From: Halobacteriovoraceae bacterium
GTDB taxonomy: Bacteria; Bdellovibrionota; Bacteriovoracia; Bacteriovoracales; Bacteriovoracaceae
Reading direction: 5' to 3'
DNA length: 50,875 bases
Assembly (NCBI GenBank): GCA_002711995.1
Contig: PASN01000022.1
Coordinates: forward strand, 1 to 50,875
Shown: one piece after another, positions 30,998 to 50,321 of the stretch
How positions within the stretch are numbered: position 1 is the first letter of the stretch
How the letters are laid out: every line of letters begins with the position of its first letter
Translations under genes and position numbers: made by a program
Notes under the pieces: model-generated
The model's database searches: none
Seen by the model: the letters and a program-made list of their open reading frames with translations, nothing else
Told to the model about the DNA's origin: nothing

Positions 30998-31589
30998 GAA
31001 GACCATTTTAATTAGTACCCTATTGCTTTTTTCCATTAACTCTTTGGCCAATGTTGCAATAATTGAGCAATTAAGAGGTCAGGTATTTCTAGGCACCGCC
31101 AAATTGAAGGAGAAGGCCCGAATAAAACAGGCCGGAGTTCTTCGCTCTGAAAGTGGATCCTTTGCAAAAATTCACATTCCCCACATGGCATCAACCATAG
31201 TTCTTGGCCCAAATTCAAAGCTAGAGTTAAAACTTAATAAAAAAAATAACCAGTTAACTCTCACAGACGGTCTTGCCCGCTGGATAAGCAACAACACCAA
31301 ACCAAGCTTGAAGTCTAAAAGGTCAATTTCCACCGAATCTGCGGTAATGGGAGTTAGAGGCACTGACTTTCTATTGGTGGCAAACACGCTCTTAAAAGAA
31401 ACGGAAATTGTCATGTTTGAAGGCCAGGTTGACTTTAAAAACCGTGCAGATCCAAGTGACGCCAGACTATTGGAGAAAAATCAGTGGGGCGGCCTAGGTG
31501 GACGCTTTGGAGGAGAAATCGGCAAAGTCCTAACTCTACCTCCAAACATTATTGAGGCCTTTAAGGGGAAGATCCCTAAAAACCTCTAG
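30996..31589 (+). CDS. Exported FecR-domain protein
   Basis: A 197-residue protein with a signal peptide (ending SLA) and a FecR-like domain: VAIIEQLRGQVFLG, SGSFAKIHIPHMASTIVLGP, ESAVMGVRGTDFLLV and EIVMFEGQVDFKNR. This domain is common in exported proteins that bind the envelope or signal across it. There is no membrane helix or sigma factor partner here, so a classical FecIR system is unlikely. It is divergent from uvrA and converges on the sugar transferase with interlocked stop codons. Confidence 0.85.
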   Translation: MKTILISTLLLFSINSLANVAIIEQLRGQVFLGTAKLKEKARIKQAGVLRSESGSFAKIHIPHMASTIVLGPNSKLELKLNKKNNQLTLTDGLARWISNNTKPSLKSKRSISTESAVMGVRGTDFLLVANTLLKETEIVMFEGQVDFKNRADPSDARLLEKNQWGGLGGRFGGEIGKVLTLPPNIIEAFKGKIPKNL

Positions 31590-32293
31590 CCATCGAGAAC
31601 AACGTTTGCTGTTGATCGCATGAGCACCATTTTTTTGGCGGTGTGATACGCTATCAACAGGTTTAAAAACACGCTGTGTCTGTGGTTTATATACATCAAA
31701 TCATACTTCAGCTTTTCTTTTGCAGGAGCATCATACCCGCAAGCAATTTGTGCAAGCCCAGTAATCCCAGGCTCCACTTCATGTCTTTTTTCATAGTTAT
31801 CAATCTCTTGCTCAAAAACTAAAGTAAATTCAGGTCTCTCAGGTCTAGTACCAATAAATACCATATCCCCTTTCATAACATTTATAAGTTGGGGCAACTC
31901 ATCTAGGTGAGACTTTCTGAGCAACCTTCCAAGAGGTGTAATTCTTGGATCTCCCTCCCAGCTAAGGGTATGGCCTGTGGATTCCTCTGCATTCACCACC
32001 ATGGTTCTAAATTTTAAAACTTCAAACAGTTTTCCGTTTTTTCCAACTCTGGTTTGTTTGTACAACAAAGGTCCAGGCATAAAGGCCTTGATTCCAAATG
32101 ACACAATGAAAAGTACTGGAGAGAAAACAATTAAAAGTATCACCGCGCAGAGGCGGTCTATCAAATTGAGCTCAGCCCCTGCCACTGAAAACTCATCAAA
32201 GTACCACTTAAGACCTGGATCGATCCACCTCGCCTGGACATCACTTTCTATATTAAGCGCACTTGGGTTTCCTTGAATTGTTGAAGTCTTCAT
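31586..32293 (-). CDS. Undecaprenyl-phosphate sugar-1-phosphate transferase
   Basis: A 235-residue initiating glycosyltransferase of the short (PglC/WcaJ-C) type. It has one membrane-embedded helix (about residues 45-72), then KQTRVGKNGKLFEVLKFRTM, the SHLDELPQLINVMKGDM core and GTRPERPEF. It transfers a sugar phosphate to lipid carrier to start a polysaccharide repeat. The long N-terminal membrane half of WbaP-type enzymes is absent. It marks the left edge of the polysaccharide locus. Confidence 0.92.
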   Translation of the reverse strand: MKTSTIQGNPSALNIESDVQARWIDPGLKWYFDEFSVAGAELNLIDRLCAVILLIVFSPVLFIVSFGIKAFMPGPLLYKQTRVGKNGKLFEVLKFRTMVVNAEESTGHTLSWEGDPRITPLGRLLRKSHLDELPQLINVMKGDMVFIGTRPERPEFTLVFEQEIDNYEKRHEVEPGITGLAQIACGYDAPAKEKLKYDLMYINHRHSVFLNLLIAYHTAKKMVLMRSTANVVLDG

Positions 32294-35600: not shown

Positions 35601-35660
35601 GACGCCCGCAAAGATATTTGGATTGAAAAATGCGACGTCTCCTGGCCTTACCTCTGGTAA
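32643..35660 (+). CDS. Exported ADP-ribosyltransferase-like protein (long paralog)
   Basis: A 1005-residue protein with a signal peptide (ending ARA, residue 25). Its N-terminal 230 residues align with those of the 596-residue paralog: DLNLFDLIRDG, His82 in YFHYTR, Tyr131/132 in AGTGYYISANPFSSANYG, and Glu218 in WFSVFNEDIF. A long alpha-helical, repeat-like region (about residues 240-930) follows. The C-terminus ends WIEKCDVSWPYLW, as in the paralog. The extra 400 residues lie in the helical region. It is embedded in the polysaccharide locus but in the opposite direction to most of it. Enzymatic activity is an inference from motif order. Confidence 0.7.
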   Translation: MKRIISKTNAIAFAATLLFAFSARADLNLFDLIRDGKHRYSINYYCKSFFSKEENRKKLHSQAFQDEIQSLEELGFDPYYFHYTRSQTKKKLKTFSIIHDASINKENGFRDILKHQMTYYDALSNAAGTGYYISANPFSSANYGNEQILLTVKQTAKVYDTTDKTKKKIYDSEMSRLWTVTSLNECPAKLIMSLLMDENGVDLWYYSKNSQWFSVFNEDIFEDSSILNIGSEYSSLITKKMAEEGKLAPLFDSVLEFGAKDYSIFLSELTPYLEGHSGRIVDEALKIIPFKGNELKFSNMLKLMDGQTFHEDLLTLKTLDPNFNDHLFNVSLENSSQEFKQTYLDLLLSGKKAGDNDILLKNLRLLLRWEKINTDEFIGIAKTNFDSSYTKTFTEFELDYYPKGLSAALILEGLKNPDSRTELISLQSRLILNIMKYAEPSDTSTYFSLIEKDYDLIDLFNQVKRNPILSEVNILWNQFVTTMFLYKPELLNMENARIFSSHQASYPKQLRATLLFLLGKKTTHQAVWEYYYKYAKTINTIDLSSWFNSPGLAPLLSSNEKIELFHTIFSKHGPRSQQYIDFLANAELMEKEYDLVMAMKDLSEDQRLFYIERFKDNPATSKRFANIPNEDSVWSFFTPNDKASEVTRAIIDIYESKLIRNVDMFEQHAGAEALAILSTPERILRNLDVLNNGHKVHYIVDALEREHEPFTYKQLYDSIELNIATASSIIEGLITANVQRFSEFNKLLLTRPEILSNSSLETFDRYLDHVIKGKVETLDELKLSLKNLTLDFLKAKTAILKFGNLDQEITDSIIAKNLQLSKLSQPQTDELHRAYELNYEGKRFIRVPFWDSYISKYSNDLDTAVKALPLNHLEVDHLRSIISGYFETDQTHLHLKELVESKEANVNIYSLAAKLGDDQLMSRIVEFVSPEYPTNKDYIPAFMSYYLKHNRPEFMEDHISQKLCPKIDGYKGLREWYKSAEEDDEEDARKDIWIEKCDVSWPYLW

Positions 35661-35666
35661 TCTTAC

Positions 35667-38600
35667 CTATTGATGTGCATGACTCCTCCCCTGGGCTTCA
35701 TGTATGAATGCCAAGCGGTTTAAGGTTGAAAGGTACCTCCTTCCAACCTCACCCTCAACTTTAATATTTAAACGTTTAAGAAGAGCTAAGCGAGCCTCTA
35801 AAAACTTATGCTCAAGCAATAAGTTGAAACTTGCTTTTTCTTTACGTGTTTCTCTATTTCCATCAATCGTGATAATTTCCACCTCTTCATCAAATAGACG
35901 CAATATCTCAGCAACTTTAGACGCCAATAAGGCCCCCTCAGTTGCTCCAGCAAAAGTGTAAGGAGCCATAATATTTGCCTGTTTTAGGTTGTGAACATAG
36001 CCAAGAGCAATATCAAGTGAAGAAATTGAATGAATCCTGGCTTTGGAAATGGAACGCCCTAGTAGGCCATATACTGGGCGACCACGAAGGGTCGTGGATA
36101 GTCCAGCGTGTGGAAACTCCCCATCAAACTCAGGAAAAAGAATGACTGGCCGGCCATCGCCATAGGGTCTAATGTTACGTATACCAGGCGCATCAACACT
36201 TACTGCGTTTGCTACCATTTTATTAACGACATTTTTGGGAACAGTTCTTTTCTTCTTCGGGGCAGGAAGCTTCTTTTTATCAATTTTTAATGTGGGAGTA
36301 AGTGGAAACTCTTCAAGATTTATAAAGTGTGAAGGCACCATATACATTGGAAGTTTTTTCTTAGCATGCTCTCTAAGCTTCTTTTCATCAACATCATAAC
36401 CTTTGATGTAGGCCACCAATCTTTGGTCTCCAGGAGAATCTTCTCTTAAAAGTACAACTACCTGTTGAACACCGCTTGGCGTTTGTAGAACAGCTTCTAT
36501 TTCCCCCAGCTCCACTCGATGCCCCCTAATTTTTACTTGAGTATCCTTTCTTCCAATATACTCCAAGAGCCCCTTGCGGTTGAATCGCACGAGATCACCA
36601 GAACGATACATTTTACCTTCTCCGACAAAAGGATCATCCACAAATAAGCTGTTAGTGAGCTCTTTGTTATTGCAAAATCCCTTAGACACTCCAACTCCTC
36701 CGATATAAAGCTCACCTATCGCACCAATAGGAACAGGGTTTAGATGTTCGTCAAGAACATAGAAGGTGGTGTTTTCAATTGGCCGTCCCAAGTAAAATGG
36801 CACCTTTGGGGATTCAACTTGGTGTGCGGAACACCACACTGTGGTTTCTGTAGGCCCGTACATGTTCCAAACTGATCGACACGATGGAACTAGCACCTTC
36901 GCAAGAGAAACAGGAAACGGCTCCGCTCCGCAAAGTGCCGTCAGTTTTTTTGAGGGCTCAAGGCCAGCTTCCAATAAAAGTCTCCAGGTGGCGGGCGTTG
37001 CTTGAATAAAATCAACCTCGAACTTCTCCACTATTTTTTTAAGCAACCTTCCATCCAAGCTATCTTCTTTAGATGCTAGAGCGATTGAAGCTCCTGCAAG
37101 CAATGGCAAAAAGATTTCTAAAATTGAAATATCAAAACATGTGGTGGTGTGGGCAAGAACTGTGGACTCTGCGTTAATACCTGGAGCCTTTTTCATGGAG
37201 TTTAAGAAGTTTAAAACATTTTTAAATGTCGCCTGAACGCCTTTTGGCCTGCCGGTACTTCCGGAGGTGAAGATCACATACATCACATCATCAGAATCAC
37301 ACTCTAGTGGTCTAATGAGACTTTTATTTAGATCTATATCCTCGAGATTAATTTTACGACAAGTAAGTCCAGATAACTTTTTTTTACTGAATGTATCACA
37401 GATAACGGAGTGGCATTTTGTCTGTGAAACCATGTAGTTCAAACGATCTTCCGGAAAGTAAGGGTCCAAAGGAACATATGCTATCCCTATCATTGCGGCT
37501 CCTAACATTGCAGCGACCATTTCAGGAGTTCTCTTCATGCAAATCCCAACAAAATCACCAGATTGTATCCCCGCTTCACTGTAATTGGCGGCAAAGCCTT
37601 TGGCCTTTGTGAATAGGGTCTCGTAACTAATGGAGTTCCCATCAAAGTAAATTGCCGTCTTATCTGGGAATTCCTGCGATCGTTGAACCAATTTATCAAC
37701 AAGACTTTCCCTTGGGGTGTCCAAGACATACTCGTTGTTTATATTTGAGAGGACTCTTTCATGGGATATTGAGCGCATGTCACTCCATGTCCCACTCGAG
37801 CCTGAAGCAACAAAACTTAGTACATCACGATAGTATTCGGCCATTAGTCGAGCACTTTCAGGGTCAAAAAGATCCTTTCGATACTCAATTATGAATTGAA
37901 CTCCATCATTGCCAGGAATTACATAGCAATCAAAGTCCGTATAGATTGACCCTCTATCAACATATAAGATTTCATAATTTGAATCCCCAAATGGGCAAAA
38001 CTCCGTTTGAAAGTCCTGGAACGAGAAATGTGTCTGGTAAAGTGGACTTCGAGATGAGTCTCTTGCAACCTTACCCAGTCCCAACATTTCAGAGTGTGGA
38101 ATTTCTTGGTTGTCCAATATTTCGGCGAAGTTTCGTTGAAGCTCTACGAAGAACTCTTTAACCGAATTTTTCTTTTGGCCCTTCACCGGCAAGGCGTTTG
38201 CGAAACACCCTATTGTTGAAAATAGGTCTTTATCTGGCCTTCCCATGACCGGAACCCCCACAACGACTTCATCCTGTTGTGAGTAGTCCATAAGCATTTT
38301 CTTATATGAGCCGAGAAATAACGTAAATAAACTAACACCCCATAGTTTTGATTTTCCACGAAGCTTTTCAAGAAGATCCTTTTCGACAACGAGTCGCTCC
38401 ACTCCTCCGTTGTATTGGATTGCTGGAGGTCTAGGATAGTCAGTGGGCACCTCTAAAACAGGAAGCCCCCCCTCAAGTTTCTTTCGCCAAAACTCTTTAT
38501 CTTTTTGAAACTGCTCTGAACCTAAATACTCATTTTGCCAAATACAAAAATCAACAAAACTAAATTTCTCAGGTGTTAACTCTTTACCTTCATAAGCGCG

Positions 38601-39314
38601 ACTTAATGAGTCCACAAACACTTCAAAGCTGTAGCCATCAAAAAACGCATGGTGAAAAACAAGCAGTAGAATATGGTCATTCGCATTTAAACGATAAAGT
38701 TTCACAGAAACAATGGGTGCTTTAGAAACATCCAATGGCTCCCTTGCCACAAGTTCCATGTCTCTCATAGCGGCTTCAAAACTTTTAGGTTCCATATATT
38801 GGATATAAAAATTTTTGCGAACCACATCTAAGCTTTGCAATACTTGCAGCGGTCCCTTTTCTATAGTCATTCTTAACGCCGGATGGTTTTCAAAAACTTG
38901 AATGAAGGCCTCATGCAACTTTGTAGCGTCAATTTCAGCTCTTATTCTCATGCCATAAGGTAGATTGTGCATATTTGTCCCTGGGTTAACCTCCTCCAAG
39001 TACCAGGCCTGCTTTTGATGAGTTCCGAGTGCACTCTTTTCAATTAAATTGTTTTTACGAAGTTCGTGGTCTTTAAAGCTCTGAGTGGAATCAATACTTA
39101 TCAATTTGGAGAAATCTTGCAATACAGGCCTCTGAAGGAGATCCTTTAGCCCTAGGTTTACTCCGGTTATTCTTTTTAATTCATGGCAAACATCAACTCC
39201 AAGAAGTGAGTGGCCACCAATAGTAAAAAAGTTTGCGTTGTCTGGAATCCCTTGCACCCCAAGAGCTTTTTCCCATACTGATTTTACCAAATGAATTTGT
39301 TCTTGATTTTTCAC
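35667..39314 (-). CDS. Nonribosomal peptide synthetase, carrier-condensation-adenylation-thioesterase-like
   Basis: A 1215-residue cytosolic enzyme (GTG start, AAGGAGAG upstream). Domain order: peptidyl carrier (1-75, phosphopantetheine Ser36 in GGHSLLG), condensation (about 95-525, HHAFFDG at 221-227), adenylation (about 540-1040, TSGSTGRPKG at about 683, NMYGPTETT, YRSGDL, LKIDKKKLP), then a thioesterase-like domain (about 1080-1200). The adenylation pocket reads D-I-L-Q-L-G-M-V-W-K by eye, close to the known glycine code DILQLGLIWK. The thioesterase nucleophile elbow reads GATEG instead of GxSxG, so it may be inactive. No carrier follows the adenylation domain. It sits in a polysaccharide locus and may provide an amino-acyl decoration. 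Confidence 0.85.
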   Translation of the reverse strand: MKNQEQIHLVKSVWEKALGVQGIPDNANFFTIGGHSLLGVDVCHELKRITGVNLGLKDLLQRPVLQDFSKLISIDSTQSFKDHELRKNNLIEKSALGTHQKQAWYLEEVNPGTNMHNLPYGMRIRAEIDATKLHEAFIQVFENHPALRMTIEKGPLQVLQSLDVVRKNFYIQYMEPKSFEAAMRDMELVAREPLDVSKAPIVSVKLYRLNANDHILLLVFHHAFFDGYSFEVFVDSLSRAYEGKELTPEKFSFVDFCIWQNEYLGSEQFQKDKEFWRKKLEGGLPVLEVPTDYPRPPAIQYNGGVERLVVEKDLLEKLRGKSKLWGVSLFTLFLGSYKKMLMDYSQQDEVVVGVPVMGRPDKDLFSTIGCFANALPVKGQKKNSVKEFFVELQRNFAEILDNQEIPHSEMLGLGKVARDSSRSPLYQTHFSFQDFQTEFCPFGDSNYEILYVDRGSIYTDFDCYVIPGNDGVQFIIEYRKDLFDPESARLMAEYYRDVLSFVASGSSGTWSDMRSISHERVLSNINNEYVLDTPRESLVDKLVQRSQEFPDKTAIYFDGNSISYETLFTKAKGFAANYSEAGIQSGDFVGICMKRTPEMVAAMLGAAMIGIAYVPLDPYFPEDRLNYMVSQTKCHSVICDTFSKKKLSGLTCRKINLEDIDLNKSLIRPLECDSDDVMYVIFTSGSTGRPKGVQATFKNVLNFLNSMKKAPGINAESTVLAHTTTCFDISILEIFLPLLAGASIALASKEDSLDGRLLKKIVEKFEVDFIQATPATWRLLLEAGLEPSKKLTALCGAEPFPVSLAKVLVPSCRSVWNMYGPTETTVWCSAHQVESPKVPFYLGRPIENTTFYVLDEHLNPVPIGAIGELYIGGVGVSKGFCNNKELTNSLFVDDPFVGEGKMYRSGDLVRFNRKGLLEYIGRKDTQVKIRGHRVELGEIEAVLQTPSGVQQVVVLLREDSPGDQRLVAYIKGYDVDEKKLREHAKKKLPMYMVPSHFINLEEFPLTPTLKIDKKKLPAPKKKRTVPKNVVNKMVANAVSVDAPGIRNIRPYGDGRPVILFPEFDGEFPHAGLSTTLRGRPVYGLLGRSISKARIHSISSLDIALGYVHNLKQANIMAPYTFAGATEGALLASKVAEILRLFDEEVEIITIDGNRETRKEKASFNLLLEHKFLEARLALLKRLNIKVEGEVGRRYLSTLNRLAFIHEAQGRSHAHQ

Positions 39315-39323
39315 TCTCTCTCC

Positions 39324-40325
39324 TTAAAGTAAAATTAAAAGAGCTATAGATGTTATGATTGAAGCGATCTGACCTAATCTTTGAAAAACAAGATCTGCAG
39401 TTGTTCTCTTAGACGACTGTAAAAGGATAATATCATTGGGTGCTATGGCGGGAATCGCGTTCATCTCATTAAGGTCAAACTTTATTTTTTTAAGACCTTG
39501 CTCTGTTGTCCTTATGACATAGGATTCACTGTAGTCTAAATTGTCTATAGCTCCTCCACTTTTTCCTAAATAGTAAAACAAATGGGCACGATCTTGATAA
39601 AGCGTCTTACCGGGTGAGCGGACTCCCCCCAATACTGTTACGATAGGCAGTGTGCTGGTCATTTCGCTTTCGTCCAGTTCAGTGATAAAAACCTTATCTC
39701 CACCTGTCCAAGTAAAAACATTTGAATATTTGCTGTCTTGGAAATACTGATTAAGGCTTACCGAGTAGTTGACACCTTGTTGCTTAATAGAGGCCTTATA
39801 AAACTTTTTTTGAAGGTCCCCTCTTAGTCCACCCGCCTTGTCTATTAGCTTGTCAATTCCTTCTTTCCTAGAAACATAGTATCGTCCGGAGTCTTTTACA
39901 AAGCCCCTAACTTCAACTAAATAGTCCTTTCTAAGAAGTTTAAACTGCATGTTTTCAACGCCTCTTTGAAAAAATTTTGAATAGCGTTTTAACACCTCGT
40001 CTCTTACTTCCCTAAATGTAAGGCCCTCGGCCTTAATCACAACGTTGTAAGGAAGACGCAGCCGACCATTAAAATCAACTCTAAATCTACCCTTTAGTTT
40101 TTCATCCGATGGATGATTTAAGTAAAATAAAAATCCAGGTGCGATTTTGTTTTTACGTGCCTTATGTTGGGGCACATCTTTAAAGTCAGTTACGAGCCTG
40201 CCATTTTGCTTTACAACTGGAGTGCTTTCAAATTGGTCATTATAGGTTTCATAATTAAGCACTTCATCCCTGCTGGCACAGGAACTGAATAAAGCAATAA
40301 TTAGTATAAAAACAGCTGCACGCAT
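39324..40325 (-). CDS. Wza-like polysaccharide export lipoprotein
   Basis: A 333-residue outer-membrane lipoprotein (LFSSC, Cys16). It has a poly-export domain (about residues 55-140, PGFLFYLNHPSDE then FRVDFNGRLRLPYNV) and SLBB-like domains (about 140-290, VRGFVKDSGRYYVS.. and VLGGVRSPGKTLY). The C-terminal hydrophobic helix (IASIITSIALLILL) would cross the outer membrane, as in Wza. It forms the exit channel for capsule or exopolysaccharide. It lies ten bases downstream of no other gene and just upstream of the NRPS, probably co-transcribed with it. Confidence 0.9.
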   Translation of the reverse strand: MRAAVFILIIALFSSCASRDEVLNYETYNDQFESTPVVKQNGRLVTDFKDVPQHKARKNKIAPGFLFYLNHPSDEKLKGRFRVDFNGRLRLPYNVVIKAEGLTFREVRDEVLKRYSKFFQRGVENMQFKLLRKDYLVEVRGFVKDSGRYYVSRKEGIDKLIDKAGGLRGDLQKKFYKASIKQQGVNYSVSLNQYFQDSKYSNVFTWTGGDKVFITELDESEMTSTLPIVTVLGGVRSPGKTLYQDRAHLFYYLGKSGGAIDNLDYSESYVIRTTEQGLKKIKFDLNEMNAIPAIAPNDIILLQSSKRTTADLVFQRLGQIASIITSIALLILL

Positions 40326-40497: not shown

Positions 40498-41907
40498 ATG
40501 TTAAATAAACTTAAGTCTGGCCCCTGGCCTATTTTTATATTGAGCAGCTTCTCATCAATTGCAAACTTGTATCTGCCTATATTTCTAGCAAGAACCATGT
40601 CGCCAGAGCAGATGGGCGTCTATAAAATATTTTTCTTATATCTAGGGGCTATCCCATTTTTATTTCTGGCCGGAGGACCACTTAATTCAGTTTATTACTG
40701 GGTTGGCAGATCAAGTAAGGAAAGAACACAGTATCTTCAACAATGTTTCTTCCTAATATTGGCATTGTCTTTAGGCATCTTAATGCTGGGCCTGCCTTTC
40801 ACAGAAAGAATTGCGATATTCACAAACCTTACCGGAGACAATATATACTACCTTCTTTTTGGAGCGTTCGTTGCAGTGCCATCAAGTTTTTATTCAGAAA
40901 CTAAAGTTGCCTTAGGACACACAATAAAAGGTTCTTTATTTGATACATCCTTTGAGGTTTTGAAGGTAGTGGTGTTTATTGCAGTTGCTCTGCAAACAAA
41001 AGATGTTCAAAATATATTTATAGCGTTCTGCGCTATATTCACAGTAAAGTTTTCTATTTCTACAGGTCTAAAGATTAAAAGTGGACATGTTGCATTCTTG
41101 CCTCAAAAGAAAAAACTAAAGGAAATTTGGTTTTACTGTTTGCCAATCAGTCTATCCGGACTTGTTACATTTGGAATGGATAAAATTGATCAATTTGTAC
41201 TTTCGGCGCATCTGGGCACGGAAGAGTTTGCTTTCTACTCGATGGGTTGCTTAATTGTGCCTCCTCTCTATCTTATAGAAATGAGCGTTAGCCGGGTTTT
41301 GATTCCAAAACTTTCATCTACGAAACCTAATGAAGAGAATTTAAAAATCAATCATTTCAAATCTGCAATCACAGATATTTCTATAATAATTATCCCGGCC
41401 TTTTTTGGTCTTTGGATCTTCTCCGATCAAATAGTGGAGTTTCTCTACACTGACAAATTCATAGATTCGGCAAAGTATCTTAAAGTGTTTGCTGTAAGCT
41501 ACCTATTCCTAATGATGCCTTATGATGCAATTCCTAGGGCGACGGGAAAAACAAAATTCATTTTTCACCTAGCACTAATTTTTGGTGTTCTATCGGTGAT
41601 TGCGGTCACAGGAGCAGCATTGCATTTAAGTGCCCTTCAAGTTTTAATGATCTCTTTAATTTTTAAATTTCTATCCAGGTTCGCTGGACTCGTTTATTCA
41701 TCCAAAATCATGGGGTGGCGATTAAGAAGTATGATTCCCTGGATAAACCTTACGAAGATTACCGCAGTCTGCTGCGCTTTGTACATATTATGTGAAGTGG
41801 CAAGACCATTCTTCAAAGAAAACTTGCAATGGTTTTACTTCTGCGCTCCGGCCTTCGCTTTGCTATACTTTATAGTTCTTGCAAAGGACTACAAAAGAAG
41901 AAATTAA
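40498..41907 (+). CDS. Wzx-like polysaccharide repeat-unit flippase
   Basis: A 469-residue inner-membrane protein with about 12 to 14 helices, of the polysaccharide transport (MATE-like) family. It begins with LPIFLARTMSPEQMGVYKIF, the typical amphipathic first motif, and has the internal YCLPISLSGLVTFGMDKIDQF start of the second half. It flips lipid-linked repeat units to the periplasm. It is divergent from the Wza-like gene, and its stop interlocks with the GT2 gene. Confidence 0.9.
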   Translation: MLNKLKSGPWPIFILSSFSSIANLYLPIFLARTMSPEQMGVYKIFFLYLGAIPFLFLAGGPLNSVYYWVGRSSKERTQYLQQCFFLILALSLGILMLGLPFTERIAIFTNLTGDNIYYLLFGAFVAVPSSFYSETKVALGHTIKGSLFDTSFEVLKVVVFIAVALQTKDVQNIFIAFCAIFTVKFSISTGLKIKSGHVAFLPQKKKLKEIWFYCLPISLSGLVTFGMDKIDQFVLSAHLGTEEFAFYSMGCLIVPPLYLIEMSVSRVLIPKLSSTKPNEENLKINHFKSAITDISIIIIPAFFGLWIFSDQIVEFLYTDKFIDSAKYLKVFAVSYLFLMMPYDAIPRATGKTKFIFHLALIFGVLSVIAVTGAALHLSALQVLMISLIFKFLSRFAGLVYSSKIMGWRLRSMIPWINLTKITAVCCALYILCEVARPFFKENLQWFYFCAPAFALLYFIVLAKDYKRRN

Positions 41908-43049
41908 CGCTTTGGCTCCCACGTTGGCTTTAGTTCCGAAGAAAAGGAATAGTAAACAGCGGTCAAGGCAGCTGCGTTAACTACAAAAAAGTAGTGAGCG
42001 AAGCTGAAAATTTTTGAATTACCTTTTTTTGAGTCAAAAAGTGAGGCGCACAGAGCAGTGATATAGAACACCAACTGAAGACTAAAGATAAAAAATACGA
42101 ATGCACTATCTCTATAGAGGGCTACTTCCAACCAGCATGAAATAAATAGAGAGATGGCTATTACTGGCGCAAACCACCTCAGAAGCTTATGACTTATTAG
42201 TTGAAAGCTTACAAATGGGTATTTTAACGGATTAAGCAGCTCTTTTGCATAGGCAAGCCCAGTGAGACCGCCTCTAACAACTCGTACTCTCATATCCCAC
42301 TCATCACCGGTTTTTTCGGTCGTTAATTCCTCGCAGACCGCTTCTGGTTCAAAAACGACTCTCTTCCCCTTCTTGATCATCATTAATGGCTCGGTAAAAT
42401 CCTCTATAACATTGGCCGGCAAAGGAGTGTAGTCTTTAGTTCTAAATGCGCTGGCGCAACCCACGGAGCCTGTGAGGGTTCCAGAGAAGGTTTGCGCCTT
42501 CTTTAAAAGACATTCATATTTCCAAAATAGTTTTTGGCCAGCTCCTACTTGTGTCCCCTTAGGATCTATATACTTCAAATGCCCTGTAACCATGCCGACT
42601 TCAGAATCTGCAAAGTTTCGCACAAACATCTTTATAATTTTTGGGTCATACACAGTAGTAGCGTCGGAAAACACCACAATTTCGGAGTCAACTTGCTTAA
42701 TGGCAGCATTCCTTGCTTCTGTTTTTCCTACTCGGCCTCCCACTCGGATAAGACTAACTCTCTCAGATGGGTAATCAAGGACCAATTGGTCGGTCTGGTC
42801 CGAACTAGCGTCACTTACAACTGCAATTTGAAGCTTCTCAGCTGGGTAGTCAAGCTCCATGCAATTGTCTAGTTTTGCGACGATGTTTCTCTCCTCATTG
42901 TAAGCTGCGATCATTAGTGTAACTGAAGGTAGAATTTCTTTCTTATTTACTCTTTTCCGTCTTAGCGCGCCTAGGCCTAGCGCAAGTACAAGATATCCAA
43001 AATAAGTATAGATTATTAGAAAAAAGAAAAAGATACTCATTTGTTCCAT
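41904..43049 (-). CDS. Membrane family 2 glycosyltransferase
   Basis: A 381-residue enzyme with an N-terminal membrane helix and three to four C-terminal helices. The catalytic domain is about residues 35-270: SVTLMIAAYNEERNI, VVSDASSDQTDQL, VFSDATTVYDP (DxD-like metal site), VIEDFTEPLMM and RVVRGGLTG (a QxxRW-like position). It resembles processive synthases such as PgaC in topology. It is likely to add or polymerise a sugar for the locus. It overlaps the upstream polymerase gene by 13 bases. Confidence 0.88.
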   Translation of the reverse strand: MEQMSIFFFFLIIYTYFGYLVLALGLGALRRKRVNKKEILPSVTLMIAAYNEERNIVAKLDNCMELDYPAEKLQIAVVSDASSDQTDQLVLDYPSERVSLIRVGGRVGKTEARNAAIKQVDSEIVVFSDATTVYDPKIIKMFVRNFADSEVGMVTGHLKYIDPKGTQVGAGQKLFWKYECLLKKAQTFSGTLTGSVGCASAFRTKDYTPLPANVIEDFTEPLMMIKKGKRVVFEPEAVCEELTTEKTGDEWDMRVRVVRGGLTGLAYAKELLNPLKYPFVSFQLISHKLLRWFAPVIAISLFISCWLEVALYRDSAFVFFIFSLQLVFYITALCASLFDSKKGNSKIFSFAHYFFVVNAAALTAVYYSFSSELKPTWEPKR

Positions 43050-44503
43050 GCAAGCTCTCCAATGGTTTTGGCTTCAATTTCTTCTATTGTTTTTTCCCGC
43101 ACCATATATGAATGCGTGATACAGATTCCTGTAAGGATATAAGGGTATAATTGATAAGCATGAGATAAAAAGCTGGACGCCACTCCGTATCCCACAAGTC
43201 CAACGAAGTACTCAGGTGAGTTCTTTCTGTCATGCCAACTTCTTTTTAAGGCAAACACCCAAAGACCAAAATATAGAGCAAAGCCAATAAATCCATTTTC
43301 TGATAGAACTTGGATCCACGAGGAGTGGGCCGTCATATGCCCTCCTTCAGAGCCAAGTTTGCCACCAACCGCGTATGATGGAAGATTGATGTTGTAGCCC
43401 CAAAAGCCAACACCAAAGAGCGGATTCCTAACAGCCATATTAAGCCCTGCTTTCCAATAAATTATCCTGTTGTTTGAAGATCCTTCTAAATCTGCTTGTC
43501 CACGGTTTAGTAGGGAAAAAGATCCTATTGCGACACTTAAAACAAGACAACCTACAAGAAACATGGATTTTTTAGTTTTTAGTTTTGTGAATAAGAAGGC
43601 CCCAATACAGGCCGCAAGTGCCAAAAGCGCCCCCCTTGATTGTGTGCTCCATATGAGCCAAAAAACGGGAGAGCAAATCAATGCGGAAATCAGGTATGTT
43701 ATAGTTCTTGGTTTCAATTTTCCAAACAAAAACCAACAAAATGGAAGTGCCAGGACAAGGATTGCCGCAATATCGTTTGAATTGCCGAGGATCCCCACGG
43801 TCTTGAGCCTTTGCGAGCCTTCAGAAGTAATTGTCTGAAACTGCTCTAAGTAGGTCGAATAGAAACTTATCGTTCCTAGATCTAAAATGGCCAACGCCAG
43901 CGCGAGTTTAGCTGGAAGAAGATCCTCCTTTGACTCAAATGAATTTTGAAGAAATAAAAAGAGAATTACTCCTTTTACAAACACTTCCTGATACTTAACC
44001 ATTGCCTCAGCAAAATGGGAGCTTAAAAATCCGCTTAGAAATGCCCATATGGAAAAACCGATCAGTAAAACAGTGCCAAGGTTGAAGCGGAAGTATACTT
44101 CTTTTTTTGCAAGCTTATGCCCTATAAGGGAGATACAGCAAAGATAAAAAATATCTTTAGGCATAGTCTGCATGAGATCATTTGAATAGGTTTCCCAAGG
44201 CCTTGTCAGTAATAAGAATAAAAAGAAACTAGCAGCGTACTTGGGTGAAACAAGGCTAATTGCGCATAGTAGACCAAACTGTATAGAAAACCAGCTCCCA
44301 GCTCCTTGCCATACATCTAAAAAGGCTGAACTCAACCCGGCACCTATTATGACAATGAAAGTAGTATAAAAAATCCTTCTCTCTCTACTGACACCAGCGT
44401 TGAGTTTTCGAACGTCCAAGATGATCGAAAAACAAAAAGCAAGGGTCAACAATCCAAAAAAGATTTGATGAGAATCAAGAATAAATTTTTCCAGCTCTCC
44501 CAT
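43037..44503 (-). CDS. O-antigen ligase/polymerase (Wzy/WaaL-like) membrane protein
   Basis: A 488-residue protein with about 12 membrane helices and a large periplasmic loop of the Wzy_C type: NRIIYWKAGLNMAVRNPLFGVGFWGYN..MTAHSSWIQVLSENGFIGFALY, in which an Arg and the H-S-W segment match the conserved loop. It polymerises repeat units or ligates the chain to an acceptor. Overlaps both neighbours closely (GT2 and Wzz-like), so it is cotranscribed. Confidence 0.88.
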   Translation of the reverse strand: MGELEKFILDSHQIFFGLLTLAFCFSIILDVRKLNAGVSRERRIFYTTFIVIIGAGLSSAFLDVWQGAGSWFSIQFGLLCAISLVSPKYAASFFLFLLLTRPWETYSNDLMQTMPKDIFYLCCISLIGHKLAKKEVYFRFNLGTVLLIGFSIWAFLSGFLSSHFAEAMVKYQEVFVKGVILFLFLQNSFESKEDLLPAKLALALAILDLGTISFYSTYLEQFQTITSEGSQRLKTVGILGNSNDIAAILVLALPFCWFLFGKLKPRTITYLISALICSPVFWLIWSTQSRGALLALAACIGAFLFTKLKTKKSMFLVGCLVLSVAIGSFSLLNRGQADLEGSSNNRIIYWKAGLNMAVRNPLFGVGFWGYNINLPSYAVGGKLGSEGGHMTAHSSWIQVLSENGFIGFALYFGLWVFALKRSWHDRKNSPEYFVGLVGYGVASSFLSHAYQLYPYILTGICITHSYMVREKTIEEIEAKTIGELAWNK

Positions 44504-44505
44504 TG

Positions 44506-45672
44506 CTAGTGGTTTAAAATCTGAGGCTCAGTTCTTGCTCTATGCCCTATCGAACTTGTTTTGTATTTTTCTGTAGGGCACTTTAAGGCACCAAGGAATA
44601 TTGTATTGGAACTCTTTGCCTCACTCTTCATAAGCTCAACGCGGCTAGGCGCATAGAGTTCTTTCAACACAATATAAATAAAGGCGAAACTCACACCCAA
44701 CAAAAACCCAAGTGAAGCAAACAACCTTCTTTTTGGCCAAATGGGTGTTATTGGGAGCTGTGGTCTTTCAATAACACCAATGTAAGATGCCAAGGACTTC
44801 TTCTCTATATCCAGCGCCATATTAAAGTCATGAAACTTTGCAAAGAACTTACCAGTCAATTGTCCATTAACTTCTTTATCCATAGGCATGGCCACGGCCG
44901 CCCCTTGTGCCTCCAGGCCGTCAAATTGACTTTTAAACTCTTCTAGCCAATTGGAAATAGTCTCTTTCCTTTGGAATAACTCTTGAAGCTTTGGATGACT
45001 TTTGTTGTATTGCTTTTGAAGGGCAGCGATATTGGTGTTAATTTTTTTAAGTTCAGCGCTGAGCACTTCAGGCGATCTCGAAGCTAGCGCCTTGTCTGAG
45101 CCGGATGTTGTAATTTTTTGAGAGGCATTAAGCGCTTGAAGCCTCTGAAGCATTATCTGTTTAACCACCTCAATCGTATCGATGCGGTTATTGATGAAAT
45201 GCCCGCGTACCCTATCCAATGTTGTTTCAGCAATTTTTTTTGCCCTATATGGATCTGAATCTTCAAATGAAACCCTATAACTTTGTCCACCTGTTGAGTA
45301 GTATTTAAAGCGCTCTCTTAACATTTGCCTTTGTCTGGCGACTTTTTCTTCAGGAAGATCGAGAGAGTAAAACTTGTAATCATGCGCAAGCTGATCAAGG
45401 TAGTCGTCATTGATCGCCTCCTTAACCATCGAGTCTATTGTGAAACGCATCTCAGGAATGTTGTAGACACCGGGCACGATTTCCGAAATAAGTGGATTTT
45501 TGAAATACTTTGAATAAATATTAACTTCAAATTGGGATTTGTAACTTTTTTGTAGAAACTCGGACAAACTTAACGAAAAGCTTAAAAAAGTACCGACGAT
45601 TAAAATTATAGAGATTTTATACTTAAAGAGTTTACTTAAAACATCTTTAACGTTTACTTTATCATTGTTCAT
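44506..45672 (-). CDS. Wzz/GumC-like polysaccharide chain-length protein
   Basis: A 388-residue inner-membrane copolymerase. It has a first helix at about residues 17-38, a periplasmic domain with coiled-coil (about 190-250), and the second helix (about 335-355) preceded by the typical proline-rich RPQLPITPIWPKRR. The cytoplasmic tyrosine-kinase domain found in Wzc is absent. A separate P-loop-like protein is encoded directly upstream (45674-46075), and the pair may correspond to the two halves. Confidence 0.88.
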   Translation of the reverse strand: MNNDKVNVKDVLSKLFKYKISIILIVGTFLSFSLSLSEFLQKSYKSQFEVNIYSKYFKNPLISEIVPGVYNIPEMRFTIDSMVKEAINDDYLDQLAHDYKFYSLDLPEEKVARQRQMLRERFKYYSTGGQSYRVSFEDSDPYRAKKIAETTLDRVRGHFINNRIDTIEVVKQIMLQRLQALNASQKITTSGSDKALASRSPEVLSAELKKINTNIAALQKQYNKSHPKLQELFQRKETISNWLEEFKSQFDGLEAQGAAVAMPMDKEVNGQLTGKFFAKFHDFNMALDIEKKSLASYIGVIERPQLPITPIWPKRRLFASLGFLLGVSFAFIYIVLKELYAPSRVELMKSEAKSSNTIFLGALKCPTEKYKTSSIGHRARTEPQILNH

Positions 45673-45673
45673 T

Positions 45674-46075
45674 CTACACCTGGTTTAAAATTAGTCCCAA
45701 TATTGGAAGATTTGCATCCTTAACAAGGTCGCTTATGTACCTATTTTTCTTAAGGCCTAGAGAGCGTTTACTACGAACTATAATCGCTCCATCAATTTGA
45801 CCTTCGTAAAGTCGATTTGCTGTTGGGTTTCTTTTCACTTCGTGCACATATAATGAAATTTCGCTCGCTTTAAAATTTCTTCTATTAACGGCAAGATCAA
45901 TCACCCGCACGTGTCTTCTATAGTAACGTTCCAAAAGTTCCTTAACTTGAAAGGCCACTTCAAGGTGCCCCTCATTAGGGTAATCGGCTACAATAAGTAT
46001 ATTTTTTGCGTTAAGCTCTCTAATTTTAAAATCTAGATTCTTAACCACTTCAATTTCTGGATTTAAATTTGCCAC
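45674..46075 (-). CDS. Degenerate BY-kinase/ParA-like partner of Wzz
   Basis: A 133-residue protein (GTG start, AAGGGA upstream). Its plan follows the BY-kinase/CpsD domain: KNILIVADYPNEGHLEVAFQ stands where xTSxxPGEGKSTxxxN is expected, then RRHVRVIDLAVNRR for the RVLLIDxDxR strand, and DGAIIVRSKRSL...ILGLILNQV for the final strands. The Walker A lysine and Ser/Thr are absent (NEGHLE), and there is no tyrosine-rich tail. It therefore probably does not bind ATP or phosphorylate. It may act as a structural partner of the adjacent Wzz-like protein. The assignment is by motif order and is moderate. Confidence 0.6.
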   Translation of the reverse strand: MANLNPEIEVVKNLDFKIRELNAKNILIVADYPNEGHLEVAFQVKELLERYYRRHVRVIDLAVNRRNFKASEISLYVHEVKRNPTANRLYEGQIDGAIIVRSKRSLGLKKNRYISDLVKDANLPILGLILNQV

Positions 46076-46129: not shown

Positions 46130-47395
46130 TTATTTTAAAGTTTGAAAGTATGCAGGGTTTACTTCCCCATTAAGAGTTGAGAAAGAAGCACCTTTCCAGA
46201 TAACTCCACTGGTGGCAGATCTATAGGCCAACACAAGCTTAACTCTGTCATTGTGAGTTAATGAGATAATTCCTCTTTTTGGAAAAACCTTTCCTTGAAA
46301 GTCCATTACAAGCTCTCCATTGCTGGAAACGAAGCTTGCTGAGTAGGTGCTTGAAGAAAACTTTCTAATTGAAAGCTCCCCTTCAACTCCAAGGATTGTG
46401 CCTTTCATTGTTCCAATAACATCACTTTCGCTAATTGCTCGTGGTGCCTCCCCGGCCAGTAAATCTTGAACAGTAAACTTTCTCTCCCCAGAGAACCTGA
46501 TAGATTCGGTTCTAGTAGTTTGAACCTCTCCGCTTATGGCCCCTGTCGCCCTGTCAAAGCTAAGGCTAAAACTAGAGCTAGGCCCGCTTGAGCTAATGCT
46601 AGCGCCGGAGATGCTATTTCCTAAAATTGTTGCATGATGGAAAGAGAAGGCCGTTCTATTAATTTTGGAGTTTATAAAATGAACGGTAAGATTTTTTGAA
46701 GAAGTAGAGTCTAGAACTACAATTTTATCAAAGCCCAGTACCCTGGTACCCTCTATATCCATCGTCACTTCATATACACCTTCATGCACCGGCTCCAATG
46801 CAACAAGTTTAACTGAAGCGTCTGAAATCATACTTGCAGCAGCTCTTTGGATCCATGGCTCGTCTCCCACCTTTGCAGAGTAATCTTTTGCCATTGATCC
46901 AAAAGCTATGATTTGCTCTAGGACTTTTACATCCTCAATAGCAAAAACTTGTTCATGCCAGTACTGGATTACCTCATATCTTTTTGTAGCGCTGTCCAAT
47001 TGCATAAAAAGTTCACCAATGGCCTTGCCATTCATGGAGGAGTATTTTGCAAGGTTCAAAATCGCATTGTTCGCTAACGTGGCCGCCTCTCTTACCACCC
47101 AATCTTCGTCACCCATTTCAAGTGACACTGCTTGGAGCTTTCTTCCAAACTCAATTAAGTTTTGGAGTGTTGCAACATCTTTGGTTCTTGCATGTTCATT
47201 AACAAGATTGTTGGCGTAGTTGTATCGTTGATTTTGGTTCATTGTCCTCATTTGCTCAATAGTTTCCTGAACATCGCAGATAGGTACCTCACACATTTGA
47301 GTTATAGTTAGTGTGGGACTGCTAGCAATTGCACCAGTAGCTCCTACGGCACTTATAAGCGCAATGGCAGTAAAGATTTTTAGGTTTTTAAACAT
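46130..47395 (-). CDS. Exported protein with helical repeats and beta-rich C-terminus
   Basis: A 421-residue protein with a signal peptide (ending AIAS). The N-terminal half has two similar helical repeats at about residues 78-117 and 159-199 (LQNLIEFGRKL..GDEDWVVREAATLA and LEQIIAFGSMA..GDEPWIQRAAASMI), HEAT-like in spacing. The C-terminal half (about 205-421) is rich in Ser, Thr and Val and looks like a beta sandwich or barrel (SFSLSFDRATGAISGEV). AAAGGAG precedes the ATG. It is directly downstream of the TolC-like genes and ends at a terminator. Function is unknown; the context suggests an envelope or export role. Confidence 0.65.
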   Translation of the reverse strand: MFKNLKIFTAIALISAVGATGAIASSPTLTITQMCEVPICDVQETIEQMRTMNQNQRYNYANNLVNEHARTKDVATLQNLIEFGRKLQAVSLEMGDEDWVVREAATLANNAILNLAKYSSMNGKAIGELFMQLDSATKRYEVIQYWHEQVFAIEDVKVLEQIIAFGSMAKDYSAKVGDEPWIQRAAASMISDASVKLVALEPVHEGVYEVTMDIEGTRVLGFDKIVVLDSTSSKNLTVHFINSKINRTAFSFHHATILGNSISGASISSSGPSSSFSLSFDRATGAISGEVQTTRTESIRFSGERKFTVQDLLAGEAPRAISESDVIGTMKGTILGVEGELSIRKFSSSTYSASFVSSNGELVMDFQGKVFPKRGIISLTHNDRVKLVLAYRSATSGVIWKGASFSTLNGEVNPAYFQTLK

Positions 47396-47411: not shown

Positions 47412-47915
47412 TTATATTCTTAGCTCAATATTTCTTTTTAACACTTCCCCGTTTTGAAAGAAGATTAGGGCAGCTCCTCTTAGGGGACGATCAGAGGGAA
47501 CATTTAGCGTGACCTGAAAATTGTCATGCTGAATAAATGACTTAATGTCGCTAATTCCATTTGATTCAAAACTGTAAGTCACATAGCTGACCTTTTGAAC
47601 AAGCTCAGCCGGAAGAACGGTGCTAAGAGTTGCCGCCCCGCCCCTTTCAGAAGTCTCAAATTCAATGTCCATTGAGGAAAGATCTGAATTCTTCACGTTT
47701 CCAAGAGCTATTCGCTCTAAGTCATCCAACTTTTGAAGTGCCTCATAATGAAATACGACCGTTTGGGCGAAATCTTTTATGTAATATAGATTTGCCTCAA
47801 TTAACTTATCGATGGAAATTCTTTGGGCCTTAAACAGCTCAAGTTGAGCAAGCATAAATCTTTTTGAATTTTCCATAATATTTATTTCACGAGCTAGAAC
47901 TTCGACAGAGTTCAT
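47412..47915 (-). pseudogene. C-terminal half of a split TolC-like protein
   Basis: A frame of 167 codons begins with an ATG that has no good ribosome site. Its first 70 residues are long coiled-coil helices (REINIMENSKRFMLAQLELF..KLIEANLYYIKDFAQ) of TolC type. The remainder is a beta domain (SYVTYSFESNGISD..LRGAALIFFQNGEVLKRNIE) matching the C-terminal extension of the intact paralog at 48900-50321 (VSVIYGGDIFDYR..VTASLLLSSGDIVKLE). Upstream of the ATG the same frame stays open back to the A5 run at 47968-47972, where it joins the preceding gene after a -1 shift. It is therefore the second half of one gene rather than a separate one. Confidence 0.7.
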
Positions 47916-47959
47916 AAGTTTGGCCTCTTTGCTATAAACATCGTTTTGGATATTTACTT

Positions 47960-48886
47960 CTAATGCCTTTTTGCGTGAATTGCTTGATTAACTTTAGAGC
48001 CGGCCAAATGCACTCGCTGCAAATAATCAAATCCCAAACCTGCAAAGCTTAGGATTGACCATTTAGCGGATCGCTTTGCATTATATGCAGCATAGATCAT
48101 CTGTTGAGAAGCCTTCATTTCATGTGAGCGATTTAAGGCCGTCAGTGCGAGCTCTTCAGGGTTCACTTTAAATTCATCTACAGACAAGAACTTCTTAACA
48201 GGTTGAAAGCTAAGGGCCTTCTCATGATAATCCATTCCCAAAAGCATTTTCAATGAAGCTTTAGACTCCTCAAGATAGCTTTCTAACTTTAAATACGCCT
48301 CTCTCTTCTTTAGAGATTGATACTCAAGCTCATCAAGCTGTTGCTGAGTGGCCACACCAGCTTGGACCTGAACACGCATTGCTTGCATCAATTTTTCAAG
48401 CATAACAAGCTCATAACTGGCCAAAGCGATAATCGCCTCTTCCTTTAGCGTTTCGTAGTAAAGATTCGCGACTTCATTTTTAACATTCTCTTTGAGAGCG
48501 GCCAAAGTGTGGCTTTGAGCATTTTTGAGATGGTGCGTTCTTTTTACATTAAACCACTTGCTTGGGATGGAAGTCACAAGCTCAGCAAGGATTAGTGGAT
48601 TCCAGAAGTCAGTCGCCTGAAGCACTAACACTTCTCCCACGCCATAGGGAAAGTATTGTGATCTCGCCTGACTAATTTTTTGTTGCGCTTGGTAAAGTCT
48701 TTCATATGCGATTCGAGCGTCCACATTCTCCCCAGCGGCAAGTTCTTTAACTTTCTCTAGGGATATTGCGCCATCACGAGACTCTAAAACGCTATTAGAA
48801 ATGTCTAATGCCCTCAGGTGCTCATCACTTGCCAGAGCATGTAGTGAGAAAGCAAATGAGAGAGTTATTGATATTATCAGTTTCAT
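47960..48886 (-). CDS. N-terminal part of a TolC-like outer membrane factor (frameshifted)
   Basis: A 308-residue frame with a signal peptide (ending HALAS), then ISLEKVKELAAGENVDARIAYERLYQAQQ and long coiled-coil helices. It aligns with the first two thirds of the intact paralog (48900-50321): RSAKWSILSFAGLGFDY against RGAKWSFLSFTGIGFGY. It stops at AIHAKRH just where the paralog continues, and the next residues in the -1 frame (KKALEVNIQNDVYSKEAKL) restore the match. The whole was an outer-membrane export duct protein. TAGGAG precedes the ATG. Confidence 0.75.
   Translation of the reverse strand: MKLIISITLSFAFSLHALASDEHLRALDISNSVLESRDGAISLEKVKELAAGENVDARIAYERLYQAQQKISQARSQYFPYGVGEVLVLQATDFWNPLILAELVTSIPSKWFNVKRTHHLKNAQSHTLAALKENVKNEVANLYYETLKEEAIIALASYELVMLEKLMQAMRVQVQAGVATQQQLDELEYQSLKKREAYLKLESYLEESKASLKMLLGMDYHEKALSFQPVKKFLSVDEFKVNPEELALTALNRSHEMKASQQMIYAAYNAKRSAKWSILSFAGLGFDYLQRVHLAGSKVNQAIHAKRH
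47966..47973 (-). other. Frameshift site in the TolC-like gene
   Basis: On the minus strand the zero frame reads GCA AAA AGG CAT TAG. Re-reading one A of the A5 run gives GCA AAA AAG GCA TTA, which stays open and restores the TolC-like sequence. The heptamer A-AAA-AGG resembles but does not equal the classical A-AAA-AAG slippery site, and no strong downstream stem is seen. A mutation or a homopolymer sequencing error is as likely as programmed shifting. Confidence 0.65.
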
Positions 48887-48899
48887 ACAGAACTCCTAT

Positions 48900-50321
48900 T
48901 TACAGACTCACAATGGTCTCAAGTTTCACAATATCTCCAGAACTCAGAAGAAGAGACGCCGTCACAGCTTTTTCGCCCGTCCCACGAACCTTCGTATAAA
49001 GATAAAAATTTCCAGTTGTGTTTAGAATTCGGTAATCAAAAATATCTCCACCATAAATAACCGAAACGATTTGATCCTTTAATTCTGGAGCGATATCAAT
49101 ATTTACTGACACCTTGGATCTTCTTGAACGTTTCTCAACGTCCACAATTAAAGCGGCGTTCTCAAATGGCGTAACGTCAAATTTGTTTACTGAAGAGTCC
49201 AGACCTAAGAGTCTCTGGGTTTTTGCAAGTTGCATTCTCTTTTCCATTCTCAGTGAAATAAGATTTCTACTTTCTTCGAAGTAAAGCCTCTTCGTTCTCA
49301 CAACTTCGTAAAAGTCAACTGTGCCAGCATGATGAAGCTCAATTGATTGCTCCATATTCTCTTTTGCGGTTTGAACAATCTCTTTTTGAATTTCTAACCT
49401 TTCTTCAATTAAATCCATTTGCTCATATGACAGAGCTATTTGATTTTCGATCTTGTTTTGAACTTTTCCTTTCTTCAGCTCAATCTCAGTGACTTTAGAC
49501 CTTTCGATCGCCAAGGCCGATGGATAACCAAAACCGATTCCGGTGAAGCTTAGGAATGACCACTTGGCTCCACGAACCATGAACCTGGCTCCCTCAGTCA
49601 TAAACGTATGAGCGGCCAGTTCGGGCGATCTCTCCACTCCCATTTCAATTGCAGACTCAGTGCTTTCAGGCATTTCAAAAGTTGTGTCAGAAAGCTCGGC
49701 CAGTTCCACCTTTTGCTCAGGAGATCTATTTAGCGCCATCATAATTCCTTCTTTCTGAATCGCCATGGCGCTTTCGAGCATGTACATCTGCTGTTGATGC
49801 TTCATTAAGTTTCTAGTGTGAAAAAATACGTCAGATTCAGATCCTAATCCCATTTTCAGTCTAGTTTCGGCCATCGACACAGCTCTTTTTAAAAGTGCCT
49901 CTTCCTCTGTCATAGAGTCCAAAAGCTCTTCTTGATGCTTAACGCTGATGTATGAGAGAGTAAGGTCTCTTAAAATGTTAAGCTTAATTGATTCGCTCAC
50001 GTACCCTTCGGCCAAAGAGAGCTCTTTACTCGCCTGATAATAAAACCAACTTGTTGGGTTTGGTGAGATTGCGTATAAAAGGGCGTAAGAGGTGTTCCAA
50101 AAAAACATTTGAGCGGTAAGGTTTGGTAGAAATTCTCCCAAGCTGTTTTTAACACTTCTTTGGGCCTGATAATACTTTTCATACTGAACCTTAATATCAA
50201 TGTTGTTGTCTAAAACCTCCGAGCGCATATCTTCAAGAGAAAGCCTCTCCTGAGAATAAGCGCCCAGTGAGAAGGCGAACATTAAGGTTAAGGGTAAAAT
50301 CTTTTTAAACACTAAAATCAT
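48900..50321 (-). CDS. TolC-like outer membrane protein with C-terminal beta extension
   Basis: A 473-residue protein with a signal peptide (ending GAYS). It carries two TolC repeat units: LSLEDMRSEVLDNNIDIKVQ at the start, long coiled-coils at about 85-190 and 260-385, and the QRLLGLDSS element. An extra roughly 90-residue beta-rich domain (about 385-473) follows, which standard TolC lacks. It is probably a trimeric duct through the outer membrane for efflux or type I-like or polysaccharide export. GGAG precedes the ATG, and it begins the operon that continues into the frameshifted paralog. No inner-membrane pump or adaptor is in the window. Confidence 0.82.
   Translation of the reverse strand: MILVFKKILPLTLMFAFSLGAYSQERLSLEDMRSEVLDNNIDIKVQYEKYYQAQRSVKNSLGEFLPNLTAQMFFWNTSYALLYAISPNPTSWFYYQASKELSLAEGYVSESIKLNILRDLTLSYISVKHQEELLDSMTEEEALLKRAVSMAETRLKMGLGSESDVFFHTRNLMKHQQQMYMLESAMAIQKEGIMMALNRSPEQKVELAELSDTTFEMPESTESAIEMGVERSPELAAHTFMTEGARFMVRGAKWSFLSFTGIGFGYPSALAIERSKVTEIELKKGKVQNKIENQIALSYEQMDLIEERLEIQKEIVQTAKENMEQSIELHHAGTVDFYEVVRTKRLYFEESRNLISLRMEKRMQLAKTQRLLGLDSSVNKFDVTPFENAALIVDVEKRSRRSKVSVNIDIAPELKDQIVSVIYGGDIFDYRILNTTGNFYLYTKVRGTGEKAVTASLLLSSGDIVKLETIVSL

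Follow-up and report, generated by a model that had tools for sequence, protein, structure and literature searches.

A reduced paralogue of a glycine-coded NRPS module within a Wzx/Wzy-type polysaccharide locus of a Halobacteriovoraceae bacterium

The window (the whole stretch of DNA analysed, 50,875 nucleotides) carries a gene for a small non-ribosomal peptide synthetase (hereafter mini-NRPS) amidst genes of polysaccharide assembly and export, with the following features:

31586..32293, minus strand: phosphoglycosyl transferase (PGT, Bac_transf), the initiating sugar transferase, by domain search
35667..39314, minus strand: mini-NRPS gene, 1215 aa, PCP-C-A(Gly)-dead TE, a reduced paralogue of NRPS2 (see below)
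35670..36227, minus strand: thioesterase remnant of the mini-NRPS, without catalytic Ser and His segment, the second carrier in front of it deleted
36270..37682, minus strand: adenylation domain, predicted Gly code DILQLGMVWK, catalytic Lys at residue 1010
37761..39029, minus strand: condensation domain, HHAFFDG intact
39099..39287, minus strand: N-terminal carrier (PCP), FFTIGGHSL carrying the phosphopantetheine Ser
39324..40325, minus strand: Wza-like outer-membrane export protein (SLBB/Poly_export), sole copy in the genome, in one operon with the mini-NRPS
40498..41907, plus strand: Wzx flippase (Polysacc_synt_3), sole copy of its kind
41904..43049, minus strand: GT2 glycosyltransferase, by domain search and synteny
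43037..44503, minus strand: Wzy polymerase (O-antigen ligase family; Wzy_C / PEP_O_lig_1-like), sole copy
44506..45672, minus strand: Wzz-like chain-length protein (XrtA ChnLen-like), by domain search
45674..46075, minus strand: orf133, conserved locus member
46130..47395, minus strand: orf421, conserved secreted locus member
47412..50321, minus strand: outer-membrane efflux-type proteins (OEP), one of which seems to be broken into two ORFs

The mini-NRPS gene lies 9 bp behind the Wza-like one, opens with a GTG start that has AAGGAGAG directly 5' of it, and possesses a good ribosome-binding site. The carrier-first single module (PCP-C-A-TE-like) proposed by the earlier note was borne out by the order of the Pfam domains (PP-binding at residues 10-72, 9e-8; Condensation at 96-518, 1e-72; AMP-binding at 545-880, 9e-75; AMP-binding_C at 938-1008, the A domain thus spanning 545-1008) and by the tail of about 190 residues past residue 1015, which had no Pfam match and aligned with the thioesterases of homologues. 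The carrier retains its phosphopantetheine Ser (FFTIGGHSL at residue 29), the C domain its HHxxxDG motif (HHAFFDG at residue 221), and the A domain all core motifs together with the A10 Lys. The absence of a second carrier after the A domain, likewise claimed earlier, was recovered by alignment as a deletion relative to all NRPS2 proteins and solo homologues. In the thioesterase-like tail, GATEG stands in place of the GGSMGG of homologues, the C-terminal His segment is missing, and neither a Ser-Asp-His triad nor a GxSxG motif was found in the alignment with them; an AlphaFold model of this part (pLDDT 82) matched TE domains in the PDB with TM-scores of about 0.5, as expected for a truncated fold. 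Since GATEG replaces GGSMGG and the C-terminal His segment is absent, the tail is, as far as its sequence tells, a dead remnant, and with both a working thioesterase and the second carrier gone, the mini-NRPS should therefore be unable to release a product hydrolytically.

The code residues of the A domain (728, 729, 732, 771, 794, 796, 818, 826, 827 and 1010) read DILQLGMVWK, as had been called by eye and likened to the glycine code, and differ by one conservative residue from the DILQLGMIWK given for Gly-activating domains in a 2025 survey of 2051 A domains (PMC12283262). An identical Gly code is found in the PCP-C-A-PCP-TE homologues. With this pocket code of Gly-activating domains, the A domain of the mini-NRPS is predicted to be glycine-specific.

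The Wza-like neighbour and the nearby Wzx, Wzy and Wzz-like genes previously noticed were all recovered by domain search as parts of a real Wzx/Wzy-dependent locus, in which PGT, Wzx, Wzy, Wzz-like and Wza-like proteins occur together in the window (Wza and Wzz falling just under the Pfam cut-offs on some models). The window carries a single glycosyltransferase (GT2), and three GT4 genes reside on another contig of the same genome (C19). orf421 belongs to no Pfam family and gave no convincing match in a PDB fold search; its model (pLDDT 85) is an alpha-solenoid plus a beta-barrel-like part. Within the family, orf421 and Wzy were found in the identical 24 of 129 genomes, and across the phylum orf421 marks the polysaccharide locus in 32 of the 369 genomes sampled. 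At 47412-48886, two ORFs (167 and 308 aa) seemingly derive from one broken outer-membrane efflux-type gene, the counterpart of which is a single gene of about 400-510 aa in relatives. Two large, mutually related ORFs without Pfam matches lie at 32643-35660 and 22587-24377; the former separates PGT from the mini-NRPS and is absent from that place in the sister species G124, where PGT directly adjoins the mini-NRPS.

Throughout the family the locus recurs as a full set comprising OEP, OEP, orf421, orf133, Wzz, Wzy, GT2, a methyltransferase, GT4, GT4, Wzx, GT4 and Wza, followed by a phosphopantetheinyl transferase (PPTase), NRPS1, NRPS2, a GH123-like secreted hydrolase and PGT. Full-locus synteny was seen in G004, G008, G009, G019, G025, G029, G030, G080, G085 and G091, and fragments in G100, G116, G118, G124 and G125; in some of the family loci individual genes are absent or relocated, NRPS2 occurs as two ORFs in G080, orf421 and the OEP genes lie on the opposite side of the block in G085 and G091, and the NRPS pair is found 70-80 kb away from the remaining locus in G037 and G039. 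NRPS1 is organized as A-PCP-KS-AT-ACP-aminotransferase (with a proline-type code, DVQFxAHVVK, in most genomes) and NRPS2 as C-PCP-C-A-PCP-TE with a Gly code and a normal TE. In relatives, Wzx homologues adjoin the Gly-module NRPS, and the hydrolase beside NRPS2 matched glycoside hydrolases in the PDB (5l7v and 5l7r at 1e-11; Pfam GH123 weak).

Among the 129 family genomes, the Gly-module NRPS (E<1e-100) and the polysaccharide markers were found together in 22, the markers alone in 2 (G013 and G014), the NRPS alone in 1 (G062) and neither in 104 (Fisher p 2e-21, computed without correction for kinship). By synteny and by co-occurrence, the placement of an NRPS inside a polysaccharide locus, which the earlier note had read from the single stretch, is a conserved association across relatives. 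Each half can exist alone, since G062 lacks this Wzx/Wzy set and yet harbors NRPS1, NRPS2 and the hydrolase, and G013 harbors the polysaccharide locus without any NRPS. A relative lacking the gene while its polysaccharide kept the same composition had been named as a refuting case; G013 supplies the gene half of that case. Beyond the family, orf421-type loci with NRPS1-like genes and a PPTase were identified in G353 and G365, and neither was seen near the orf421 copies examined in G174, G351 and G176.

NRPS2 has a normal TE, which suggests release, and four genomes (G004, G080, G091 and G030) hold NRPS-Wzx gene pairs apart from any further polysaccharide genes. From this one could suppose that the product of the PKS-NRPS line is a free small molecule, which the flippase and outer-membrane proteins export, and that its polysaccharide neighbours are incidental. 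We regard this as rather improbable, given that the line co-occurs and is interleaved with Wzy, Wzz, Wza, PGT and four glycosyltransferases, that a glycoside hydrolase lies next to it, and that the genomes with solo pairs also carry the full locus. Taken together, the co-inheritance, the interleaving with glycosyltransferases, the GH123-type hydrolase and the NRPS-Wzx pairs point to an NRPS product that would travel with the glycan.

The pairs themselves consist of Wzx and a divergently oriented PCP-C-A(Gly)-PCP-TE NRPS (L038:6390-12045 in G004, L039:6430-12079 in G091, L043:5422-11076 in G080 and L044:6519-12093 in G030), with no other polysaccharide genes nearby and the full locus elsewhere in the same genomes; they are a second, independent escape of the glycine module. 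These pairs prompted the notion of a peptide exporter made up of Wzx and the NRPS alone, which was rejected, as full loci interleave many sugar genes. Another Gly-coded NRPS (C-A-PCP-TE), unlinked to polysaccharide genes, was observed in L037, L040 and L041 (G124:C233, G037 and G029, respectively), with conserved neighbours encoding a protein of 400-430 aa, one of 270-290 aa and a small membrane protein.

As to the origin of the mini-NRPS, the A-domain tree nested it, together with its G124 counterpart, inside NRPS2, and the C-domain tree grouped the minis with the NRPS2 of their own genus (clade 99/99). The two trees are in small conflict, attributable to either recombination or noise, the mini being placed beside the NRPS2 of G125/G029 by the former (97/84) and beside that of G000 (this genome) and G124 by the latter (91/79). 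Its carrier shares 57-60% identity with the first carrier of NRPS2 (this genome and G124) as compared to 26-40% with all others, and the gene sits between PGT and Wza, a site held elsewhere by the hydrolase, NRPS2, NRPS1 and the PPTase. Trees, carrier identity and position therefore indicate a duplication of the locus and a reduction of its NRPS to a single protein: judged from sequence comparison, the mini-NRPS is a shortened duplicate, specific to the genus, of the NRPS2 terminal half, and relative to the NRPS2 end has lost the first C domain, the second carrier and the thioesterase triad. Rather than a free-standing system, the gene is thus a reduced paralogue of the last PKS-NRPS module, belonging to a shared pathway. 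No mini-NRPS was seen in G125 (same genus; genome 81% complete), and a contig search with the mini-NRPS protein matched only distant clostridial NRPSs.

While G124 retains both loci, contig C19 of this genome (with orthologous flanks) has lost the OEPs, orf421, orf133, Wzz, Wzy, GT2, Wzx, Wza and PGT and retains the methyltransferase, three GT4, PPTase, NRPS1, NRPS2 and the hydrolase; in whole-genome searches Wza, Wzx, Wzy and orf421 were found in one copy each, all in the window. The window and C19 thus apparently constitute one pathway split over two loci, which, given the complementary gene loss and the single copies, must cooperate if the pathway works at all here. The Sfp-type PPTase by NRPS1 (G000:C19:336581-336841) was the sole ACPS-superfamily PPTase found genome-wide, and may serve fatty-acid synthesis too, or else a divergent AcpS may have been missed.

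The G124 mini-NRPS begins straight at the C domain, without any carrier and with a degraded C-domain start, and the middle of its gene falls in an assembly gap. The A domains of the two minis share 66% identity (as compared to 57% for the NRPS2 A domains of the same two genomes), with pN 0.25 and pS 0.81, values given in place of a true dN/dS for the A part, as synonymous sites are saturated between the two genus members; the TE remnants share 24% identity, with pN 0.55 and pS 0.62, a poor alignment inflating pN. The loss of the second carrier and of the TE triad, the almost unconstrained TE part and the loss of the first carrier as well in the sister copy would all suit a slowly decaying relic, left over from the NRPS2 of the duplicated locus once the need for it was gone. 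This we consider unlikely, in view of the 1215 open codons and the good ribosome-binding site, of the strongly purifying pN/pS of the A part (and its higher identity than that of NRPS2), and of the intact A core motifs, C motif and carrier Ser. Because the G124 mini has no carrier, the activity conserved across the genus is predicted to be glycine adenylation, and, the C-domain start being degraded there and the carrier absent, the condensation step may not be conserved.

Outgroup architectures bear on which carrier would receive the glycine. The NRPS2 equivalent of G353 has two A domains, both with a Gly code, and that of G365 has an A domain (Gly code) in the first C-A-PCP unit only, the second being C-PCP, which is the opposite of the family NRPS2 with its A domain in the second unit only. 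These architectures are most simply read as a single Gly A domain that would charge two carriers with glycine; by this reading, the first NRPS2 carrier (devoid of an adenylation domain of its own), which is the one kept in the mini-NRPS, is probably a glycyl carrier. The suggested loading of the mini's own N-terminal carrier is consequently only partly upheld: outgroups with two Gly A domains or a shared one favour it indirectly, and the carrier-less G124 mini argues that it is not conserved.

The same first carrier, inferred to hold Gly, could be put to a more direct use, in which, without any part being played by NRPS1 and NRPS2, the mini-NRPS would load its own carrier and its C domain would pass the glycine to an amino sugar in the repeat unit. 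The intact carrier Ser, C motif and Gly A domain, the operon shared with Wza, and the GH123-like hydrolase of the parent locus (pointing to an N-acyl hexosamine in the polymer) are consistent with such a glycyl transferase, which nevertheless appears rather unlikely, considering that the mini of the sister species lacks a carrier, that the ancestor of the C domain uses carrier-bound acceptors, and that NRPS1 and NRPS2 are kept in both genomes.

We favour a glycine-activating helper that would charge the carrier of the mini-NRPS itself, the first, A-less module of NRPS2, or both, with direct glycyl transfer to sugar and slow decay as less probable but live rivals. To this reading, in which the reduced NRPS2 paralogue acts as the glycine-charging helper of a polysaccharide-linked PKS-NRPS pathway, we assign a probability of roughly 0.5. 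In this scheme its A domain would activate glycine and charge its own N-terminal carrier and/or (in trans, as suggested by the carrier-less mini of G124) the first carrier of NRPS2, and its condensation domain would then hand glycine to an amine. The PKS-NRPS line would make a short acyl-peptide (a Pro-derived beta-amino acyl-Gly-Gly), which would end on the lipid-linked repeat unit ahead of flipping by Wzx. The wider proposal, that an acyl-peptide built from Pro, malonate plus transamination, Gly and Gly is fixed to the repeat unit before flipping, and that mini and solo copies diversify this decoration, we put forward tentatively, at somewhat short of even odds. Overall, the data suggest that the slime or capsule of these bacteria carries a small, enzymatically made peptide, the attachment to sugar being the step that we infer.

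The usual association of PKS-NRPS lines is with free natural products, and that of surface polysaccharides is with sugar chemistry. In the present case, an entire line, a PPTase and a Wzx/Wzy set co-travel within one family and are met again in two further families of the phylum; if the proposal is true, this would amount to a pathway for peptidyl-polysaccharides that employs a whole assembly line. Should the product be polymer-bound, bacteria would possess a route for writing small designed peptides onto surface glycans, and natural-product mining should look inside capsule loci. Moreover, the mini-NRPS represents a clean natural experiment, in which the carrier and thioesterase were lost and the glycine-activating domain is still selected. 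In the open-access literature searched we found no NRPS or PKS-NRPS in a Wzx/Wzy locus described as a polymer-modifying pathway; all the parts are of known kind, and what that literature did not yield is their joining, with a complete PKS-NRPS line placed inside a conserved Wzx/Wzy locus.

Among known systems, the best PDB match of the mini-NRPS is the PCP1-C2-A2 part of LgrA (linear gramicidin synthetase; 1000 residues, E 2e-196), with which it shares the PCP-C-A order. The substrate of LgrA module 2 is glycine, although the pocket letters of its A2 differ in the alignment from DILQLGMVWK; LgrA continues to PCP2-E and a peptide antibiotic, whereas the mini, set among polysaccharide genes, lacks a second carrier and ends in a dead TE. 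The terminal modules of AB3403 and EntF (C-A-PCP-TE) have the C, A and TE-type folds in common with the mini, which differs from them by a carrier at the front, none before the TE, and absent TE catalytic residues. The D-alanylation of teichoic acids resembles the proposed pathway in outline, a small-amino-acid adenylation (DltA) feeding a cell-surface polymer; no DltB-type acyltransferase was seen in the locus, and the mini scored 241-249 bits against DltA models with cut-offs of 476 and 560, so that its identity as a DltA D-Ala ligase was rejected. The Wzy and Wzz homologues resemble the branch found in XrtA/PEP-CTERM exopolysaccharide loci (TIGR03098, PEP_O_lig_1, ChnLen), which also hold AMP-forming ligases and carrier proteins; the mini as the XrtA ligase TIGR03098 was rejected (179 vs 592 bits). 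All scores against the models of this branch fall far under the curated cut-offs, and, in distinction to XrtA loci, a complete PKS-NRPS line takes the place of the single ligase.
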